From a virus, in the IMG/VR virus record IMGVR_UViG_3300035169_000077, positions 34,688 through 98,687 of that record: a stretch of 64,000 nucleotides of DNA, one strand, 5' to 3'. The first letter of the stretch is position 1. Each line of letters starts with the position of its first letter. The position numbers and the translations under genes are program-made. Shown here piece by piece: positions 11,310 through 51,574 of this stretch. The notes under the pieces are model-generated. The model saw only the letters and a program-made list of their open reading frames with translations. It made no database searches and was not told the origin of the DNA.

Positions 11310-12677
11310 TTATCCTCGCTCGGCCAGCCAGCGGAGCGCCCCGGCCTCATCCCCGAACTCCCCGGCATCCTGTGCCTCCAGGGCCTCGGCGAGGATGGGC
11401 TTGAACGACGGCCCCGGCTTCATCCCCGCCGCGATCAGGTGGTCCCCGGTCAGCAGTCCCTTCGCGGGGCGTTCCTCAACCTTCAGGTCCCGGCCCAGGT
11501 CGAACCACGCGCCTGCCGTGCTCCACGCGTCCGGGTCGCCGCGCCCCTTCGCGTCGGCCGCGCACACAAGCGCGAGTTCGGTCAGGGTCGCGGGCTCCAG
11601 CCTGCGCACCAGCCGCCGCACCGCCGGCTTCGTCGGCCGCCCGAAGCAGTTCATGTGCTCCCGGATCAGCGGGACGATGCGGGCGATGATGCCCTCAGGG
11701 CAGCCGATCGACCGGAGGAACGCCGTCGCAGGCTCTACGCCGGCCTCCGCGTGGCCATGGGAGGTGATCCGGCCCTCGGTGAGCTGGCTGTGAGTGACCT
11801 TGCCGACGTCGTGCAAGAGCGCGGCGAAGACGATGACCAGCCGGTCTGTTCCGGTCAGGCCCGCCTCATCGGCAAGCCGGGCAGCCTGGTCAGCGGCTAG
11901 CCCGGCGTGGGTCCACACGTCGCCCTCCGGGTGCCATTCGGGGTCCTGCTCGACGCCGTGCATGTACGCGAGTTCGGGGTAGCGCGCGTCCCACCAGGTG
12001 TCATGCAGGACCGCCAGCGCCCGGCTGACGTGCGTGCCGCGCGTGCCGATCTTCTCCCACTCGCCCCAGATGCGCTCGGCCGGCAGTTCCCGGTACGAGC
12101 CCAGGAGATCCCGGCACAAGATGGCCGTCTCGGGGACCATGGTGAAGCCGAACCGGGCCGCGAACTGGACGCCGCGCAGGACGCGCAGCGGGTCCTCGCT
12201 GAACGCGTCCGACGTGTGGCGCAGGATCCCGGCCCGGATGTCGGCCAGGCCCCCGTGAGGGTCGATCAGCCCCCCCGTTGCCGGGTCGAGCATGATCGCG
12301 TTCATCGTGAAGTCCCGCCGGGCGCTTGCCTGGGCGAAGCTGATGTCCATGTCCGGCGAGACCTCGAAGCCCCGGTGGCCCGCGCTGACCTTCCGCTCGC
12401 GGCGGGGGACGTTGATGTCCAGGTCGGTGTCCCCGGCGCGGACCTTCAGCACGCCGTAGCTCTTGCCGACCTCATCCACGCGGCCTGCGCGGCTGAGGGC
12501 TTCCGTCAGCGCGGCGAACGTCAGGCCGTAGACCTCAACGTCAACGTCCTTGCTCTCGGCCCCGCCCATGAGGGCATCACGCACGAAGCCGCCTACGAGC
12601 AGCGGGTGGCCGCCAGCTTGGCGGATCGCGGCCAGCACTCGCTCAACGTCCGGCGACAGGCGGGGCAGCGTGATCAC
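11310..12677 (-). CDS. CCA tRNA nucleotidyltransferase-like protein with HD domain
   Basis: 455 residues. Class II nucleotidyltransferase head: LLVGGFVRDALMGG (about 26-39), DVDVEVYG with the metal-binding Asp pair, and RRDFTMNAI, followed by the ADIRAGILRH and EDPLRVLRG motifs of CCA-adding enzymes. An HD phosphohydrolase domain follows (LLHDVGK, then GHAEAG and HMNCFG). The family adds or repairs the 3' CCA of tRNA. The GTG start overlaps the upstream gene's stop, so it is translated with the RlaP-like protein. Confidence 0.9.
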   Translation of the reverse strand: MITLPRLSPDVERVLAAIRQAGGHPLLVGGFVRDALMGGAESKDVDVEVYGLTFAALTEALSRAGRVDEVGKSYGVLKVRAGDTDLDINVPRRERKVSAGHRGFEVSPDMDISFAQASARRDFTMNAIMLDPATGGLIDPHGGLADIRAGILRHTSDAFSEDPLRVLRGVQFAARFGFTMVPETAILCRDLLGSYRELPAERIWGEWEKIGTRGTHVSRALAVLHDTWWDARYPELAYMHGVEQDPEWHPEGDVWTHAGLAADQAARLADEAGLTGTDRLVIVFAALLHDVGKVTHSQLTEGRITSHGHAEAGVEPATAFLRSIGCPEGIIARIVPLIREHMNCFGRPTKPAVRRLVRRLEPATLTELALVCAADAKGRGDPDAWSTAGAWFDLGRDLKVEERPAKGLLTGDHLIAAGMKPGPSFKPILAEALEAQDAGEFGDEAGALRWLAERG

Positions 12678-13387
12678 GGGCGGTCCCAGTAGGCGCGGCG
12701 GACTTCTTGCAGCCACGCCTCGGCGGCAGCCTCGTCCGGGCGATCCGGGAGCACGCCGGGCTTGTCGAATGCCTCCTCGGCGCGGGCGAGCACGTCCCTC
12801 GCCACCTCTACGCCCCGCGTGGCGACGTCCTCGCCGAACTCACGGCACGCCGCAGCCTGCGCAAGGCTCAGGCGCACGCTCAGCCGGCCGCTGACGTGCA
12901 GTGCCGTCCCCTGGTGGATCAGCCTCCACAGATGGCGGGCGTGCTTCTCGGTACGCTTCCTGGTGTCGGCCGAGAACGACCCGTCACCCCGGTTCTCCAG
13001 CCGGCGGAACTGCTGGGTGGCATACCCGAGGTAGGCGTTCCGGACCGCCGGCCGCGACAGGAGCGACTTGCGGATATCTACCAGCAGGTAACCCTCGCGC
13101 GTCGCCGTCTCGTACCTGTCAAGCCACAGCAGCTCCGCGACGGTCGGATTGCACTTCAGGAGGAGCGCGGCCAGCTTTCCCGCCTCGTGGTACGTCGCGT
13201 CCGGCTTGGTGCTGACCCGGCTCGCGGCCTTCCCGAGCGGCGGGTGCAGCCCGTGGAACGCCACGGTGGGCGCGGCGTAGCAGCCGATCCGGTCCACGTC
13301 GGAGTCCTCGGTCGCCAGCCCGTATGCCGTTGAGCCGTTGATGCCCGCGAGGAGCACGTTCGGCGGCGGCTTCATCTCAGCGTCCAC
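12674..13387 (-). CDS. RlaP-like nucleotidyltransferase (RNA-repair type)
   Basis: 237 residues. Polymerase-beta-type active site G-S-x-A-Y-G-L-A-T-E-D-S-D-V-D near residues 18-32 and a TVAELLWLD stretch match the COG3541 / RlaP family, linked to RNA-repair operons in bacteria and phages. A GTG start was chosen for its GAGGGGAA site; a longer frame reaches 13429. Paired with the CCA enzyme, it suggests repair of damaged tRNA during infection. That role is inferred from family and pairing. Confidence 0.8.
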   Translation of the reverse strand: MDAEMKPPPNVLLAGINGSTAYGLATEDSDVDRIGCYAAPTVAFHGLHPPLGKAASRVSTKPDATYHEAGKLAALLLKCNPTVAELLWLDRYETATREGYLLVDIRKSLLSRPAVRNAYLGYATQQFRRLENRGDGSFSADTRKRTEKHARHLWRLIHQGTALHVSGRLSVRLSLAQAAACREFGEDVATRGVEVARDVLARAEEAFDKPGVLPDRPDEAAAEAWLQEVRRAYWDRP

Positions 13388-16038: not shown

Positions 16039-16530
16039 GTGACCCCACCGCACCCCGACGTGCTCCGCATAGGCGAGAACGTCCGCATAGCCCGGGAGCG
16101 CAAGGGCCTGTCCCAGGCCGCGCTCGCCGAGGAGATGCGCGCCCGCGGCTTCACCGCATGGCAGCAGCCCGCCGTGTATAAGACCGAGAAGGGCGTCCGC
16201 GAGCCCAGCGGCCGGGAGATGGCAGCCCTCGCCGCGATCCTCGGCACCACGATTGAGCGGTTCTTCTGGCTCCAGGGGGAGGCCGCCGAGTCCGACGCCG
16301 CAGACGCCGCCATCGTCGCCGTCCGCCAGTCATGGCAGGGCGCCTCCGACGCTGTCCTGCGCCTGGAGGCCGCGCTAGCCTCGGGTCGGCACCGGCTCGC
16401 GCAGGCGAAGGCCAGCAAGTACAAGCGGGTACGCGAGGTCGCCGGGGAGCTTGAGGCGGAACTCGGCGAGTCCACCCTGGAGGCCGCCGTAGGCGACGGC
16501 CTCGCCCGGCTCGAGGACGGGGACACCTGA
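16039..16530 (+). CDS. XRE-family regulator upstream of integrase (163 aa)
   Basis: N-terminal HTH_3: RIGENVRIARERKGLSQAAL, then QPAVYKTEKGVREPSGREM. The C-terminal ~100 residues are helical with heptad-like charge (AVLRLEAALASGRHRLAQAK; VREVAGELEAEL), probably for oligomerisation. The GTG start was preferred to an upstream ATG because it follows GGGGG and clears operator 2. The stop overlaps the integrase start (TGATG). Confidence 0.85.
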   Translation: MTPPHPDVLRIGENVRIARERKGLSQAALAEEMRARGFTAWQQPAVYKTEKGVREPSGREMAALAAILGTTIERFFWLQGEAAESDAADAAIVAVRQSWQGASDAVLRLEAALASGRHRLAQAKASKYKRVREVAGELEAELGESTLEAAVGDGLARLEDGDT

Positions 16531-18203
16531 TGGGGTACGCGGAGCTCGTCCGGTCGCCGAGGGGGAACTACTGGCGCGCCCGGTTCAAGGGAGCGGACGG
16601 CAAGCTCGTGACCGTCGTTGACGAGGCCGGCGCCGTCCTCCGGTACGACGGGAAGCGCAAGGCCAAGAAGGCGGCAGACGACCGGGAGAAGGACGCCCGC
16701 CAGGGCCGGTGGCATGACCCGGCAGCGGGGATGATGCTCGTCAAGCCGTGGGCGCAGGAATGGTACGCGGGCCTGAGCCTCGCGCCGAAGACCATGGCCA
16801 ACATCAAGAGGCACCTGGAGCATCACATCATCCCGTTCTTCGGCGAGGACGAGCTGAGAGCGGTCGACGCCGCGCGGATCGCCGAGTGGAAGGCGGAGGA
16901 GAAGGCCGCGGGGATGTCGCCGAACAGCATCAGGACGTGGCACGGCACCCTGCACACGCTGCTAGAGGACGCCAGGCTGACCGGGAGGATCAGCGTCAAC
17001 CCGGCGACGGCCAGGCGCGGCCGGGGACGGCGGGACGGCGGGGCGCGAAGGTCGCAGGTACAGCAGGAGCGCGTCATCACGTCACCCCTCGGCATCCTGC
17101 TGATCGCCGAGCGGATGTCGGTCCTGTCCGGCCGCGATGACGAGTTCGCCATGGTGGAGGCGGCCTACGGCTGCGCCCTGCGCCTCGGCGAGCTGACCGG
17201 CCTCGAGGTGCCGTCCGTCCGGGCGGGCGGCCTCAACCCCCGTAACCCGCTCCGCAAGGTCGCCGGCGAGCTGCGGGACGAGGCCATGCGAGTGGAATGG
17301 CAGCTTACCGAGGTTGAGGGGGAGCTGCTGCGGGAGCGGCCGAAGAACGGCTCCACCGGCGACCTTGACCTGCCCCCGTACCTGTCCCGGCTGATCGGGG
17401 AGCATGTTGCCGCGGCCGGCCCGCGGGAGTGCCCGTGCCACGGGACCGTCCACGCGTTCCGGGGGATGGGCGCGGCGAGCGCGAGGCCCGTGGTGCCCTT
17501 GCGGGTCGTCGCGGGGTACGCGGGCGTCTCGGAGGCCGCGGCGTACGTGGCGCTCGGCGGCAAGGGGCGGGTGTCGGACGCGACCCGCGAGAAGGTGGCG
17601 GCGGCGGCCCGGGAGGTCGGGTGGGTGCGGCCGGCGCGCCTGGACGGCCCGGCATGGCACTGGCGGCAGTCGGCGTTCGAGGCGATGTTCACCGCCGCGG
17701 TGTCGGGCTGGCTTCCGCCGGACGCGCCGCGCCCGCGCCGGCCGGTGCCGCTGGCGGGGGAGTGGCCCGGGACGCGGCTGCGCGGGCGCAACGCCCAGGG
17801 GCGGGCGTCGCTGCGGTGGGAGCCGGTCGCGGAGGGGATGACCCCGCACGGGCTGCGCCACTCGCTGAAGACCAGGATGGAGGAGGCCGGGATACCGGAG
17901 GTCGCCTCCGAGGCCCGGCTGCGGCACGAGATCCCCGGGGTGTCCGGCGCCTACCGGCACGTGACCCCCGAGATGCGCGCCCAGGTGACCCGGCTGCTAC
18001 AACAGGACTGGGAGGCGGCGCTGGACGAGCGGCTCGCGATGTCGCCCCGGTCGCCCGTCGCGGTGCTCGGCCGGCTGCTCCAGGAGCGGGCTGAGGCCCG
18101 CAAGCCCCGCCTTGTCTCCAGTGCGTCTCCAGAAGCAGCAGGGCCGGCTTCCCTCCCGAGGGTGGAAACCGGCCCTGACCTGCGTCGGGGTGACTGGATT
18201 TGA
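16530..18203 (+). CDS. int: tyrosine integrase with an inserted LacI-type HTH
   Basis: 557 residues, longer than usual (about 380-450). Core-binding domain near 70-165 (TMANIKRHLEHHIIPFFGED). Catalytic residues: R218 (ALRLGEL), H440-G-L-R443-H, H466 and Y475 (SGAYRH). Residues ~325-371 read RVVAGYAGVSEAAAYVALGG, RVSDATREKVAAAAREVGW, a clear LacI-family helix-turn-helix inserted between the catalytic Arg and the HxxR box. The 3' end of the gene enters the attachment core, so the last codons could differ in the prophage. Translated with the XRE gene upstream. Confidence 0.95.
   Translation: MGYAELVRSPRGNYWRARFKGADGKLVTVVDEAGAVLRYDGKRKAKKAADDREKDARQGRWHDPAAGMMLVKPWAQEWYAGLSLAPKTMANIKRHLEHHIIPFFGEDELRAVDAARIAEWKAEEKAAGMSPNSIRTWHGTLHTLLEDARLTGRISVNPATARRGRGRRDGGARRSQVQQERVITSPLGILLIAERMSVLSGRDDEFAMVEAAYGCALRLGELTGLEVPSVRAGGLNPRNPLRKVAGELRDEAMRVEWQLTEVEGELLRERPKNGSTGDLDLPPYLSRLIGEHVAAAGPRECPCHGTVHAFRGMGAASARPVVPLRVVAGYAGVSEAAAYVALGGKGRVSDATREKVAAAAREVGWVRPARLDGPAWHWRQSAFEAMFTAAVSGWLPPDAPRPRRPVPLAGEWPGTRLRGRNAQGRASLRWEPVAEGMTPHGLRHSLKTRMEEAGIPEVASEARLRHEIPGVSGAYRHVTPEMRAQVTRLLQQDWEAALDERLAMSPRSPVAVLGRLLQERAEARKPRLVSSASPEAAGPASLPRVETGPDLRRGDWI
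18114..18134 (+). repeat. left copy of 21-bp direct repeat flanking att
   Basis: GTCTCCAGTGCGTCTCCAGAA matches the copy at 18355 in 17 of 21 positions. It lies inside the integrase 3' end, 50 bases left of the att core. Candidate integrase arm-type site. Confidence 0.6.
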
Positions 18204-32705: not shown

Positions 32706-33192
32706 CGTCGCCTCCGAACCATGCGTGGCACGACGGGCAGCGGCGCGCCTCGCACTCCGGGCACTCAAGCTCGGCGACGGCGAAGTTCGTGCCGAACTCG
32801 CTACCGCACCCGCCGCACGTCACGTCCAGCCAGCCCGGTTCCCCGTCACGAGGGCGCACGTCCGCCGGCCGCGCGCCGCTGGCCTCCAGGTAGGCGATGA
32901 GCTCACGGCGGACGGACTCGCCATCCTGGCCGCCCTGCAGCGCGATGCGCCGGACCTCGGCGAGCTGCTCGTGGAGCCTGCCGTGCGACGTGGCCAGCGC
33001 GTTGCACTCCCCGCGCAGCCGCTCCCGCTCGGCCTTGACTTCCGTGTGACGCTTCTGGACGTCGGCGAGGGTTTCAGCCCATCGCTGGTTGGCGGCCAGG
33101 GCGTGGGCCAGCTTCGCGGCGAGCTGGTCCCGCTCGGTGGTGCTCTCGCTGACCGTGAGCTCATCAAGCTGTGCTGGCGTCGGCTCAGGCAC
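32698..33192 (-). CDS. coiled-coil protein with C-terminal zinc ribbon (164 aa)
   Basis: Coiled coil to about residue 90, then LDVTCGGCGSEFGTNFAVAE, LECPECEARRCPSCHAW: three Cys pairs. Overlaps both neighbours by eight bases. Confidence 0.7.
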   Translation of the reverse strand: MPEPTPAQLDELTVSESTTERDQLAAKLAHALAANQRWAETLADVQKRHTEVKAERERLRGECNALATSHGRLHEQLAEVRRIALQGGQDGESVRRELIAYLEASGARPADVRPRDGEPGWLDVTCGGCGSEFGTNFAVAELECPECEARRCPSCHAWFGGDDA

Positions 33193-36030: not shown

Positions 36031-36389
36031 CGGGCACCTCCCGGCACCAGCACGGGACGGGGCACGGAAAGCTCCCGGGCCTTGCGGACGATCGCGTCAC
36101 GGAGGGCACGGGACTTCGCGCCGAGGAGCCTGCGGGCGCGGTCCCCCCGCTTGCGGCGGGAAAGCCACCACAGGACCGCCGCGATGACCACGGCGATGGC
36201 CTCCCCGGCCGCGTTCCACCCCGCGCCGGCGGCGAGGTCAGCCATGGCCGCGACGGCGTTGGCCGCAGCGGCCCCGGCCCACCATGACCCGGCGGGGACT
36301 GGCCGCAGGGCGCGGACGAGGGCGAGGACGAGCGCCTCCGCGCCCGTCTCGGCGGCGGCCGTCGCGATCATGACGACAGGGCCGGTCAC
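36027..36389 (-). CDS. membrane protein (120 aa)
   Basis: Two or three hydrophobic Ala-rich spans (VVMIATAAAETGAEALVLAL; AIAVVIAAVLWWLS) and a basic C-terminal region (RRKRGDRARRLLGAKSRALR). Unknown role. Confidence 0.65.
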   Translation of the reverse strand: MTGPVVMIATAAAETGAEALVLALVRALRPVPAGSWWAGAAAANAVAAMADLAAGAGWNAAGEAIAVVIAAVLWWLSRRKRGDRARRLLGAKSRALRDAIVRKARELSVPRPVLVPGGAR

Positions 36390-36643
36390 GGGACGTCGCC
36401 CCGGACCATCGCGTCAACGGCGACCTCAAGGGCCTCGGCGATCAGCCACGCCGTACGCAGGGTCGGGCCGCTCTTGCGGGCCTGGAGGCTGAAGAGGGTC
36501 CCCTCGCTGACCCCGGACTCGGCCGCGAGCCTCTTCACGGTCCAGCGGCGAGCCAGCCGCAGGCGGGTCATCGACTTGGTGAACGACACGTCGGGGTCCC
36601 TCACGGCGGTCAGGGGCAACTCGGCCGGCGGGCTAGCGGGCAT
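36386..36643 (-). CDS. XRE-family regulator inside operon B (85 aa)
   Basis: MTRLRLARRWTVKRLAAESG, VSEGTLFSLQARKSGPTLRT: HTH_3 fold. Embedded in the replication operon, so it may repress or tune its own transcript. Confidence 0.8.
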   Translation of the reverse strand: MPASPPAELPLTAVRDPDVSFTKSMTRLRLARRWTVKRLAAESGVSEGTLFSLQARKSGPTLRTAWLIAEALEVAVDAMVRGDVP

Positions 36644-36968
36644 TCGCCCTCCTCGGGGTTGCGGGGGTAACGGGACGGGAGGGACGGCGGGGGCGGGCGG
36701 ACGGCGCGGAGCCGATCAGCCGGACCCTTGCGAGGGCCTTGCATGACCAGGCGTGCGGCCTGAAGCGGTGCTCGCCCGAACGGCACTGGTAGTCGTCGGG
36801 GACGCGGCGGCAGCGGGGCGTGTCGGTGATGTCCCAGCGGACGACCCACGGCCCGTCAGGGCCGGTGCTGAGGGCGAGCAGCTCGCCCGTGGCCATGAGG
36901 GCGAACAGCACCCGCTCTGCGCAGTCGGGGCAGTCCCCGAGGCCCGGTCTCGGCCGTGAGGTGCTCAT
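36633..36968 (-). CDS. zinc-type protein next to initiator gene (111 aa)
   Basis: DCPDCAERVLFALMATGELL, a beta middle (WVVRWDITDTPRCRRVPDDY) and QCRSGEHRFRPHAWSCKAL. Arg/Pro-rich tail. ATGA overlap with the putative initiator gene upstream. Confidence 0.7.
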   Translation of the reverse strand: MSTSRPRPGLGDCPDCAERVLFALMATGELLALSTGPDGPWVVRWDITDTPRCRRVPDDYQCRSGEHRFRPHAWSCKALARVRLIGSAPSARPRRPSRPVTPATPRRANAR

Positions 36969-38293
36969 GCGGTCATCGCCTCGGTCTTGACGTGGTGGGC
37001 GTTGTCTTCCGGGAGGCCGCACTTGCAGTAGTTCTCGCCCATGCTGGTGCGGTACTCGAAGCTGAAGGCGTGCCGTTTGGGGCCTTGGCCCGGGTTTGCC
37101 TGCGGCCGGATCTCGTCCCATTCGGGGTCGGCGAGGATCTCCCGGAGCGTCTGGCCTGCCGGGTCTGGCGGCAGGAGGTTCGCGATGTCCGCTTCCTTGC
37201 GCACGCTGGTGCGGTAATAGCCGGGAGTGCTGATCACGGTGCCGTTTTCCTCGGCCCGCTTGTCGATGACGCCCTTGGCGAAGCGGGCTTCCTGGGGAGT
37301 GACCACCCGGGCGCGGCCCTTGCAGAACTCATCGGAGATGGCGGCGAGCGCCGCAGCCTCGAAAGCGTCACGGGACCGGGAAGCGTCACCGGAACCGTCA
37401 CGGCGGCGACGCTTCTGAGCTGCGGTTCCATTGCCGGCGACGCTTGCGGAAAGGCGTTTCGCCTGGTCAGAAGCGTCACGGCCCGCGCGTGCGCCTGATT
37501 TTGACTCACCCGGCAGATAGATAGATCTATCTTGATCATCCAGGGAAGCGTCACCAGGAATGTGACGCTTCTGGCCTGCGGAAATGGTTCCCGTGACGCT
37601 TCCGGAAGCGTCAAAAGAAGCGTCACCGGCAAAGGGTGAAGCGTCACCGTTGCGGCGTGCGGTGACGCATCCCACGCATGCCACCGCGATGTTTCCCGCG
37701 TTCATTTCCCCGTCCCTGTTGACCATTTCCCATGCGCCCGAGTCGCGGGCGCGGCCCTTCCCCCACCTGACCGGCACCGAGCAGAACCGGCACCGGTCGC
37801 CGTCCCTGGCCCGCACGGCGTCCCTGAGGGCCTTGTCCCGGTAGATGGCCTGCCTCGGCCGCCTCGCCGTCGCGGGACGCCGTGCCGTGGCCGCAGGGGC
37901 CACGGGCTGCACCAGGGCCGGGGCGGCCTGCGCGGTGCCGTCCCACCGTTCCCGCCAGTTCACGAACTGGTAGCCGTCTTTCACCTTCCGCCAGATGCCC
38001 ATGCGGACGAGGATGCCGGCGGCCCGTTCCCCGTCGCTGGTCAGCGTCGCCAGCACGGAGGCGCGGATGAATCCCGTGTTCCCGTTGCGGGCGCACCAAG
38101 CGCCCGCCTTGGACAGGACCCCGGCCGTCGCGTCGTCAAGGTCGCGGGTGTCGGCGGAGTCTCCGAAGGTGTCATGGGGGGTGAACTTCACTGGCGCTGC
38201 CCATTCCAGGGGCAGCGCGGGGGGTGCGCCATGAGGTGCGTCCGATCGGTGCAGCGGGATTAACGTCGGCCGGCGGCAGTGCATGACGCCCAC
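36965..38293 (-). CDS. putative replication initiator with HNH-like zinc domain
   Basis: 442 residues. Residues ~35-130 (VKFTPHDTFGDSADTRDLDD, TSDGERAAGILVRMGIWRKV) form a winged-helix domain like those of phage replication proteins. Then an HNH-like Cys unit (DGDRCRFCSVPV, IAVACVGCVTARR), a low-complexity linker whose DNA carries the iterons (37361-37669), and a C-terminal helical domain (TPQEARFAKGVIDKRAEENG). Initiator role is inferred from the winged helix, iterons and position. GTG start overlaps the stop before it; a GTG at 38191 is an alternative. Confidence 0.7.
   Translation of the reverse strand: MGVMHCRRPTLIPLHRSDAPHGAPPALPLEWAAPVKFTPHDTFGDSADTRDLDDATAGVLSKAGAWCARNGNTGFIRASVLATLTSDGERAAGILVRMGIWRKVKDGYQFVNWRERWDGTAQAAPALVQPVAPAATARRPATARRPRQAIYRDKALRDAVRARDGDRCRFCSVPVRWGKGRARDSGAWEMVNRDGEMNAGNIAVACVGCVTARRNGDASPFAGDASFDASGSVTGTISAGQKRHIPGDASLDDQDRSIYLPGESKSGARAGRDASDQAKRLSASVAGNGTAAQKRRRRDGSGDASRSRDAFEAAALAAISDEFCKGRARVVTPQEARFAKGVIDKRAEENGTVISTPGYYRTSVRKEADIANLLPPDPAGQTLREILADPEWDEIRPQANPGQGPKRHAFSFEYRTSMGENYCKCGLPEDNAHHVKTEAMTA
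37361..37669. other. candidate replication origin: iteron cluster with AT-rich block inside the initiator gene
   Basis: About 13 copies of the 10-mer GAAGCGTCAC or close variants in 310 bases. Direct at 37361, 37380, 37392, 37470, 37545, 37605, 37617, 37638; inverted at 37408, 37438, 37562, 37593, 37662. Between copies at 37497-37540 lies an AT-rich stretch with AGATAGATAGATCTATCTTG, unusual at this G+C and a good DNA-unwinding element. The two orientations encode different peptides (GDAS against QKRH), so the repeat is conserved as DNA. Confidence 0.7.
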
Positions 38294-39517: not shown

Positions 39518-39775
39518 GTGCCCGAGGAGTTGCCCGAGTTGCCAGAGGTCGCCAGCGCCTACCGCGCGTACAAGCAGGCAGACGAGGAAGCCCTGCTGAT
39601 CCGCTACCGTGCCCGCGCCACGCTCGGCGCGGTGATCCTCCGCGATCGGAGGCGGGCCGGCATGTCGCAGTCCGAGGTAGCCGACCAGCTCGGCGTCCGG
39701 ACCCAGCAGGTGATCCGGTACGAGGCCGCGTACCGGGCGTGGCTGAAGGAGCACCCGGACGAGCCGCTCGGCTAG
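39518..39775 (+). CDS. XRE-type regulator divergent from operon B (85 aa)
   Basis: LGAVILRDRRRAGMSQSEVA, DQLGVRTQQVIRYEAAYRAW: helix-turn-helix with an acidic N-terminal helix. GTG start. Likely controller of the replication operon through the 9-bp repeats (inference from position). Confidence 0.8.
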   Translation: MPEELPELPEVASAYRAYKQADEEALLIRYRARATLGAVILRDRRRAGMSQSEVADQLGVRTQQVIRYEAAYRAWLKEHPDEPLG

Positions 39776-45983: not shown

Positions 45984-46243
45984 CAGGCCACCGCCGTCTC
46001 TGCCGCCACCGGGTCGCCGATCTGGTACCGCGCCGATCCGCAAGCGCACGTGAACAGCCCGGCCGCGCGGTCGAAGCCCCAGAACCCGCACTTGCCGTGA
46101 CCGTCAAGCCAGGACAGCAGGTGCCCGGCGGCGTTCAGCAGGTCGGCGGCCAGCTCGTCCGGCGCCCCCGGGCGGAGGGGAACCCCGCCGAGGGCGTCAA
46201 CGGCCACCACCTGGACCGGGTACTTGACCTCCAGGTCACTCAC
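45983..46243 (-). CDS. small protein (86 aa)
   Basis: Beta start (VKYPVQVVAVDALGGVPLRP), helical middle, GLFTCACGSARYQIGD knuckle. Overlaps the Gp3-like gene. Confidence 0.6.
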   Translation of the reverse strand: MSDLEVKYPVQVVAVDALGGVPLRPGAPDELAADLLNAAGHLLSWLDGHGKCGFWGFDRAAGLFTCACGSARYQIGDPVAAETAVA

Positions 46244-47273
46244 CGGGCACCGCCTCGGGGAGGCGCTTCTGCAGCACGGCCAGGTAGTCCCGCAGCACGA
46301 TGTAGTGATCAGGCCGCGCAGGGTCCGGGCAGATCATGTCGGTCGGGTCGATGCCGTGCGCCCGGCCTCGCTCTTTCAGCGCGTCGATATCGCCGCGCGT
46401 CCGCGCCCCGGCAGCCAGGTCGGCGACCATCTGGGCATCCAGCGGCACCCGGTCATCAACCATCGACAGGTCCAGCGGCGGCGGCGCGTCCGCGGCGCGG
46501 CCGGCCATGATCGCCAGCGGCCCGGTGCCGTGCCGTGGCGGGAGTTGCGCGGCCAGTGGCCGTCCCGCGAGCTCGCCAGCGGCGATCGCCCGCACTGACT
46601 CGTCAACCCGCAGGACCGGCACGTTGTACTGGCGGAGCAGCCCGTCGACCCGCGACTCCCGGTACTCCAGGACGAGCGTCGCCGCGAGGAGCTGCCCGAT
46701 CGCCCTGGCCCGCTCCAGCATCACGGCCTGGTCGACGATCTCCGCCGCCGCCTGCTCGCTCTTGGACAGGAGTTGCCAGACCCCGATGCCGGGGACGTCG
46801 GCGAGGACCATCTTGATCCACGTGTACGGGTAGCAGCCCTGCGGCACCTTCTGGGCGGCCAGCCTGCGCCGCTCCCGGATCGCCTCCCACACGGACTCCT
46901 CATCGCACGGGTCATCAGGCTGCGGGCACTGGCACGGACCCCGGGTCGGCCTGGTAGTCGTCACGCCGTCGCACACCACCGACGGGCCGCCGCCAGACCA
47001 GCGCATCATCGCCTGCCTGATCACCAGGTCGCCGGGCGGCAGCGCCATCCCCAGCTCCCGCACGGGCGTGTAAACCTCCCACTGCCGGCCCCACGGGCGC
47101 GGGTCCTGGCCCTGGTAAAGCTCCGCGATCGTGCAGGCGGCAAGCTCCGAGGAGGTGGTGAACCGGAATCCCTCCAGCCGGTGCGGGCGCCCCTTCTCGT
47201 CCTTGTCGCCGGACCTGATCCGGCCGATCGTGAGGTTCCTGCGCTGGATTCCCGCCAGGATCGTGCTCGTCAT
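46236..47273 (-). CDS. Gp3-like (RDF-family) protein (345 aa)
   Basis: N-terminal ~200 residues read GRIRSGDKDEKGRPHRLEGF, RFTTSSELAACTIAELYQGQ, WGRQWEVYTPVRELGMALPP, then a CDG-xn-CQC cluster and WQLLSKSEQAAAEI. This order (GRPxxLxxFRFTS, QWEVYT, CDG, CxC, GxWxL) is the pattern I know for the Gp3-like recombination directionality factor family of actinophages. In phiC31 such a protein steers a serine integrase; this phage has a tyrosine integrase, so its role here may be DNA replication or repair. C-terminal 140 residues helical. Confidence 0.7.
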   Translation of the reverse strand: MTSTILAGIQRRNLTIGRIRSGDKDEKGRPHRLEGFRFTTSSELAACTIAELYQGQDPRPWGRQWEVYTPVRELGMALPPGDLVIRQAMMRWSGGGPSVVCDGVTTTRPTRGPCQCPQPDDPCDEESVWEAIRERRRLAAQKVPQGCYPYTWIKMVLADVPGIGVWQLLSKSEQAAAEIVDQAVMLERARAIGQLLAATLVLEYRESRVDGLLRQYNVPVLRVDESVRAIAAGELAGRPLAAQLPPRHGTGPLAIMAGRAADAPPPLDLSMVDDRVPLDAQMVADLAAGARTRGDIDALKERGRAHGIDPTDMICPDPARPDHYIVLRDYLAVLQKRLPEAVPGE

Positions 47274-50688: not shown

Positions 50689-51320
50689 GCCGATGCCTCC
50701 AGCGCGGCCTGCGCCTCGCCCCACGTCTTCGACATGTCGCCGCTGACCGCGTCAATGAGCGACTTGAGGTAGTCGGCGCGCTCCTCATCGCGGCGCGCGT
50801 ACCGGTCGGTGATCTCCGCCATCTCCGCCGCGTACTTCGCGAGCTCGGAGAGGGTGGACATCTCGCCGTACTTGTCGTCGGGGAAGAGGGAGAGTTGCCC
50901 GGCGGCCTCTTGGCCCTTGCGCGCGAGTTCGCGGGCGGCATCGCGGCGCTTCTCGTCCTCATCCCGCGCGTCGAACGGCTCGGTGTCGAGGGTCGCCTGG
51001 ACCGGCGGGAAGCCGGCCTTGATGAGGCCCGACCAGTTCTCCAGATCCGCAAGAACTTTGCGGATCTGGTCCTCGCTCTCGTACATCCGGGCCGCCTGGA
51101 GGCGGTACTGAATTTCACGCGCCGAGAGCGTCTTGTAGCCCTTTGCGATGGCTTCGGCGATCAGCCGCTCGACGACTCCGGGCTTAAGGCTCCTGCGGCT
51201 TGCCGACATCGCCTCGTCGTCTGCCAGCAGCCGCCGGCCGAACCGCCAGCGTTCGAGGACGCTGCCGGAGTCGCTGGCGGCGATGTACCCCTCGATGCGG
51301 AGATAGCGGCCGTACTTCAT
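50685..51320 (-). CDS. winged-helix phage protein near the switch (211 aa)
   Basis: VVERLIAEAIAKGYKTLSAR, EIQYRLQAARMYESEDQIRK, VLADLENWSGLIKAGFPP form a winged-helix-like domain (about 48-115). Helical C-terminus (SELAKYAAEMAEITDRYARR). Second gene after the XRE repressor; may be an early regulator. Confidence 0.7.
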   Translation of the reverse strand: MKYGRYLRIEGYIAASDSGSVLERWRFGRRLLADDEAMSASRRSLKPGVVERLIAEAIAKGYKTLSAREIQYRLQAARMYESEDQIRKVLADLENWSGLIKAGFPPVQATLDTEPFDARDEDEKRRDAARELARKGQEAAGQLSLFPDDKYGEMSTLSELAKYAAEMAEITDRYARRDEERADYLKSLIDAVSGDMSKTWGEAQAALEASA

Positions 51321-51574
51321 GCCGCCGCCCCTGCCGGCTCGGCCTCGTCGGCGGTCTCGCCGTCGCGGGTGATTGCCGCGACGGGGACGTTGAGGATGTC
51401 GGCGATGCGCCGCATTACCTCGGGACTCGCGGGCCGCGTGTTGTTCTCGATGTTGCGCAGCGCCTGCTCGTGGATGCCGACGTGCTCGGCCAGGTCCCTG
51501 GCGCTGCGCCTGTCCTTTACCCGGAGGGCCCGGATTGCCGCGCCGTTCTGGCGGCGGCCTGGCTCACGTCTCAT
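51317..51574 (-). CDS. XRE-family regulator, leftward gene of the main switch (85 aa)
   Basis: AIRALRVKDRRSARDLAEHV, GIHEQALRNIENNTRPASPE, VMRRIADILNVPVAAITRDG: HTH_3. The ATG at 51574 was preferred to a TTG nine bases upstream. TTGACA on the minus strand at 51606-51611 gives a near-leaderless promoter. First gene of operon C; Cro-like or repressor role by position. Confidence 0.8.
   Translation of the reverse strand: MRREPGRRQNGAAIRALRVKDRRSARDLAEHVGIHEQALRNIENNTRPASPEVMRRIADILNVPVAAITRDGETADEAEPAGAAA

Follow-up and report, generated by a model that had tools for sequence, protein, structure and literature searches.

A 310-bp segment of a viral genome, lying inside the gene of the phage's own predicted initiator, is likely to be its theta-type origin of replication. 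This reading is built on the repeats in the segment, their excess over what codon constraint yields, an AT-rich block between them, domain homology and a predicted fold for the encoded protein, and the linker-borne repeat clusters of about half of its relatives. The IMG/VR record carrying it (98,687 bases; genome 71% GC), of which bases 34,688-98,687 make up the window, that is, the whole 64,000-nucleotide stretch of DNA that was analyzed, has a tailed-phage gene set with a terminase, an integrase, a Gp3-like directionality factor and an exonuclease, and also has genes in the same order as phages with related terminases. The initiator gene (gene call g119) occupies window positions 36965..38191 on the minus strand, stop codon included, and encodes 408 amino acids from a GTG start at 38191, which is consistent with the opening M-[TP]-W-F-K-V-D-D of its family. 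Elsewhere in the window, a tyrosine-type integrase match encloses a LacI-like HTH stretch and is accompanied in the record by the Gp3-like directionality factor (window positions 16530-18203 and 46236-47273); such factors are of the type known from serine-integrase phages. The interval 11310-13387 holds a tRNA nucleotidyltransferase-like gene (PolyA_pol and HD) beside a second gene at 12674-13387.

The segment contains 12 copies of the 10-mer GAAGCGTCAC with no more than a single mismatch, and a thirteenth with two, between 37362 and 37671, confirming the sequence-only reading, which had counted about 13 in both orientations inside the gene. Six of these lie in the left half of the array (37362..37479: 37362+, 37380+, 37392+, 37406-, the two-mismatch copy 37437- and 37470+) and seven in the right half (37545..37671: 37545+, 37562-, 37593-, 37605+, 37617+, 37638+ and 37662-), giving the order + + + - - + / AT block / + - - + + + - along the plus strand. 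At 37636 there is an additional two-mismatch match, overlapping the 37638 copy. Over the 64 kb of the window the 10-mer is not enriched (84 found versus 77 expected with up to two mismatches), and the array is the top-scoring repeat cluster of the entire 98,687-base record, with a score of 13.1 versus 5.0 for the next best. One exact extra copy lies far from the array on the minus strand, at 33046-33055.

Between the two halves lies a block of 44 bases (37496..37539) with a GC content of 38.6%, a candidate unwinding element that contains the perfect 14-bp palindrome AGATAGATCTATCT at 37519-37532. So low a value is reached at only three places in the record, and a random interval of equal size would have it with P ~0.013. 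Sites of this kind might alternatively form an operator array to which the initiator or a phage repressor binds, regulating the early operon with no origin activity. Sites in both orientations close to a gene may serve as operators, and the phage encodes several helix-turn-helix proteins, some of them nearby (36386-36643, 39518-39775 and 51317-51574). However, 13 sites with an AT block deep in a coding region, at ~520-830 nt from its start, fit an origin better, and the clusters of the relatives considered below occur in the same region without common motifs. Accordingly, we regard an operator array as unlikely.

A different alternative is that the repeats merely reflect a repetitive linker of the GDAS type together with codon bias. 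The eight direct copies, on the coding strand, all lie in one frame, where they encode G/R-D-A-S or something close to it, and some copies of the array arose by an imperfect in-frame duplication (offset 156 nt, 73% over 44 nt); because of this shared frame and duplication, peptide repetition does contribute to the direct series. Against this, the four inverted copies are read in two further frames as CVT, SVT and QKR, and the fifth, two-mismatch copy as SVA, so that a peptide repeat fails to explain them. Moreover, synonymous-codon shuffles of the initiator gene (500 trials) produced a mean of 2.2 and a maximum of 7 copies versus the 12 observed. A purely peptide-level origin of the array is therefore very improbable, and the earlier claim of selection at the DNA level is supported by the inverted copies and the overall excess, while the direct copies are in part a matter of peptide repetition and duplication.

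The first 84 residues of the protein (37940..38191, minus strand) form an N-terminal winged-helix domain with 21-38% identity to that of 22 relatives, which share the consensus MTWFKVDD...HPK...GLWxxAGxWCAxxLTDG...LVxxGLW...DGYxFHDW..YQP. The relatives come from phages of Microbacterium, Gordonia and Arthrobacter, with many others found by contig alignment, and they support the proposed affiliation of the virus with the actinophages. The window protein matches PHROG_2447 (E=3.6e-10) and also PHROG_3926, both replication initiation protein families, as well as the winged-helix-HNH fusion family PHROG_15463 (E=1.1e-9 over 258 aa); when the ORF is read as 442 aa, its residues 144-350 also match PHROG_26098. 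Pfam and NCBIfam scans of the protein gave no match. As a single-sequence structure model reached a pLDDT of only 39, an alignment-based AlphaFold2 model of residues 1-200 was used instead (mean pLDDT 80.5), which shows a winged helix and, beyond it, another small domain; its winged-helix part has the helix and strand order of that fold, with pLDDT mostly >80. A PDB fold search with this model returned nothing at E<=0.001. Among the relatives, Warren, Lumos, Archie, MrSmee, Dardanus, Dropshot, Goib, LitninMcQueen and Schmidt encode a DnaB-like or other helicase in the next gene downstream or the one after it, and some database records already name the relatives' protein a replication initiation protein or RepA-like replication initiator. 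From annotation and gene context we infer an initiator function for the winged-helix family, and the PHROG matches and predicted fold likewise favor the earlier identification of the window protein as a replication initiator. The proposal of a new initiator family, on the other hand, does not hold: the winged helix belongs to the annotated PHROG_2447 and PHROG_3926, and its fusions with HNH domains are already represented by PHROG_15463 and by Brevibacterium phages AGM1-16. The window protein is a divergent representative of an initiator family already known, and its plan resembles that of lambda O and RepA_N. Full-length searches recovered no close relatives in phages, plasmids, or viral or genome contigs, and the phages with related terminases have swapped early regions, none of which encodes this protein.

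Behind the winged helix, at about residues 112-180 (37652..37856, minus strand), lies the zinc unit noted earlier as HNH-like. Alignment with nine fusion relatives and the structural model, in which this part has the HNH element order with pLDDT mostly >90, identify it as a degenerate HNH domain: the four cysteines (CxxC...CxxC) are kept and the catalytic D-H is replaced by E-M. With the catalytic pair lost, the unit probably serves as a zinc domain for structure or DNA contact. The best viral fold matches of the model of residues 1-200 are the HNH-endonucleases of the Brevibacterium AGM phages (E ~2e-6). The nine genes with a winged helix followed by an HNH domain (loci L422-L430) all keep D-H. 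In AGM1, gp50 has the same domain order as the window protein, with a weak winged-helix sequence match, and its linker after the HNH domain contains four tandem 198-bp units (L442:2933-3724), with six in AGM12 (L443:2933-4120). The GGGTC-type repeats of the AGM phages are situated near the 3' end of this gene, annotated as an HNH-endonuclease. De Melo and colleagues reportedly devoted a 2020 paper, cited in PMC9331655, to tandem repeats in the Brevibacterium AGM phages. We suggest that the gp50 repeats may be an expanded origin, and the origin reading would account for the tandem repeats reported in the HNH gene of these phages.

Repeat clusters were then scored in 22 sequenced actinophages with the winged helix, picked from the match lists for diversity (partial sequences were scanned for Yvonnetastic and Lumos, 40 kb each, Dori and Verity, 60 kb each, and Phistory minus its first 3 kb). 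In Jebeks, Schmidt, Yvonnetastic, Giles, EMoore and Dardanus (6/22), the top cluster of the scanned sequence lies in the initiator gene, which ranks 2-4 in six more (PropE1, Verity, MrSmee, Phistory, Goib and Petra). Scoring used 9-mers in 160-nt windows, a single setting picked once other word lengths had been explored, and no correction was applied for that choice. Fisher's combined p over the 22 is 8e-12 when the gene is compared with segments of equal length from its own genome and 2e-6 when it is compared with synonymous shuffles (7/22 singly <0.05), values that overstate independence because the phages are related to one another. The best clusters mostly fall at gene nt 220-540, in the linker right after the winged helix; the window array sits in the linker behind the inserted HNH-derived domain. 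Their motifs mostly differ from phage to phage, with TTCGGGCGAA common to MrSmee and Phistory. A linker repeat cluster, which the window gene also has, is strong in 12 of the 22 and was not previously a family-defining feature; it is weak or absent in 5-10, with none clear in Footloose, LitninMcQueen, Finkle, Lumos, Dori and some others. Conservation of the protein without the repeats, which the sequence-only reading had named as evidence against an origin, is accordingly seen in part of the family, and the outcome is mixed: 12 relatives have a strong cluster in the same linker region, with mostly differing motifs, and the others have a weak one or none. Only 4 of the 22 have an exceptional AT block (P<0.05) close to the repeats, which hence is a non-general part of the plan.

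The window motif itself is common to no relative, its inverted pair is absent from the viral contigs scanned, and in contigs with two close direct copies of the 10-mer none of the loci examined has the winged helix. With both the motif and the full-length protein absent from all relatives, the array stands without direct comparative support. In a terminase-related contig (G011/G012; L122:10143-11129), a different HTH gene has seven copies of TGCCGGTACG in three frames with an adjacent AT-rich stretch. Linker arrays of GTCGACGGAA and GGGCTGGCAG occur in DUF2637 membrane/HTH genes of two other terminase-related contigs, G014 and G008 (L124:2263-3279 and L110:18320-19327); being linker-borne and only in modest excess over synonymous shuffles (6 versus a maximum of 5 and 10 versus a maximum of 7), these were set apart as a separate matter. 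In another terminase-related phage, intergenic AAGTCACG-type repeats in both orientations lie just 3' of a primase/helicase-like gene (L102:15769-15983).

A second element recurs in the relatives' initiator genes in the form of a pentamer tract. The pattern (CCCNN)3CCC is present in 17 of the 22, always on the coding strand, and in 16 of these nowhere else in the examined sequence on either strand (Jinkies has it in one further place), a count that is descriptive rather than a blind test because the pattern was defined after (CCCGA)n runs had been seen. Examples in winged-helix initiator genes are L126:32842-32864, L128:1908-1940 and L198:710-732. In 11 of 23 genes, the 5-nt run is longer than in any of 300 synonymous shuffles. 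The sequence CCCGACCCGACCCGACCCGACCC occurs at 80 or more loci in IMG/VR contigs, and 50 of 80 among the matches listed have it on the coding strand of a winged-helix ORF. Some of these 50 come from identical or nearly identical phages, and most of the other loci are without a winged-helix ORF in the piece examined. The winged-helix-HNH genes instead have GGGTC-type repeats, in at least L424, L426, L427, L429, L430 and AGM1, and the window gene has neither these nor a (CCCNN)n tract. The opposite strand of the tract would possibly fit a quadruplex. We tentatively raise the idea, conceivable though by no means probable, that the genes of actinophage winged-helix initiators generally contain a two-part origin that has gone largely undescribed, in which phage-specific iterons are usually joined by a nearly always genome-unique pentamer tract of the (CCCNN)n or GGGTC type, which might form a quadruplex and aid strand opening or helicase loading. 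The window would then be an AT-block variant without the tract, and the AGM 198-bp repeats an expanded version.

If the region in the window is an origin, the winged helix would bind the 13 iterons flanking the AT block, and several bound copies would assemble into a nucleoprotein knot whose strain melts the 44-bp block. The C-terminal region (about residues 278-408; 36968..37360, minus strand) is by its position a candidate contact region for the helicase, loader or primase, comparable to those of lambda O and pSK41 Rep, and could then recruit the host DnaB helicase or its loader onto the open strand. The origin-encoded central part of the protein would be a dispensable linker, and its sequence would therefore be free to follow the needs of the DNA. 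The record has no DnaB_C match, and a DnaB-like helicase gene directly downstream, which many but not all relatives have, was not found in the window; the helicase partner would thus be the host's, as no DnaB gene was found in the record. GC skew across the window has no clear turn at the initiator gene.

The finding of no helicase gene in the record, the loss of the HNH catalytic pair, and record ends and completeness that are not established would also suit a former origin, no longer in use, in a decaying prophage; yet ORF and array are intact and structural, integration and recombination genes are present, which makes such decay still more improbable than a peptide-level explanation. Least credible of all is a parS-like partition centromere: short-repeat arrays do make up the parS loci of mycobacteriophages (PMC7157519), but the record has no ParA (PF13614) or ParB (PF02195) match and contains an integrase. 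An in-gene origin, our preferred reading, designates a specific 310-bp segment for direct cloning and testing, and comparable segments of ~100-250 bp can be named for about a dozen phage isolates of Mycobacterium, Gordonia, Arthrobacter and Propionibacterium. In the literature searched, origins of actinophages have been mapped for extrachromosomal prophages (Wetzel 2020, PMC7157519), with no mapped lytic origin for a phage of the winged-helix initiator family; the comparable repeats in the same part of the relatives' genes make their unmapped origins testable.

Finally, the proposed origin finds parallels in several known systems. In lambda, as in Stx phages, ori-lambda lies mid-way in the initiator gene O, with initiator-bound iterons and an AT-rich tract (PMC7466680, PMC6022878). 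The same plan, with an iteron-like array and an AT-rich element within the predicted initiator's own gene, is present in the window, in favor of the lambda-like arrangement that had been proposed for it. However, lambda has four iterons on one side of the AT tract, whereas the window has 13 short sites in both orientations flanking the AT block, a zinc domain is inserted, and no helicase-loader gene was recognized; in profile scans, the lambda-O family is not among the PHROG, Pfam or NCBIfam matches of the window protein. In pSK41 Rep (RepA_N), the N-terminal winged helix binds boxes central in rep, the ori-encoded linker is dispensable and the C-terminus contacts host primase (PMC5703833); this is a plasmid with four Rep boxes as opposed to a phage with 13 sites, and the RepA_N domain (PF06970) gave no Pfam match in the window protein. 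Closer are the actinophage initiators of PHROG_2447 and PHROG_3926 (RepA-like in SEA-PHAGES), often encoded beside helicase, SSB or recombination genes, which have a homologous winged helix and, in about half, a linker repeat cluster like that of the window; the window protein differs from them in its extra HNH-derived domain and in having no (CCCNN)n tract. The PHROG_15463 proteins, AGM gp50 and the nine fusion genes share with the window the complete order of winged helix, HNH and repeat-bearing linker, differing from it in an intact D-H pair and in repeats that are of the GGGTC/CCCGA type or 198-bp units in place of the window 10-mers.
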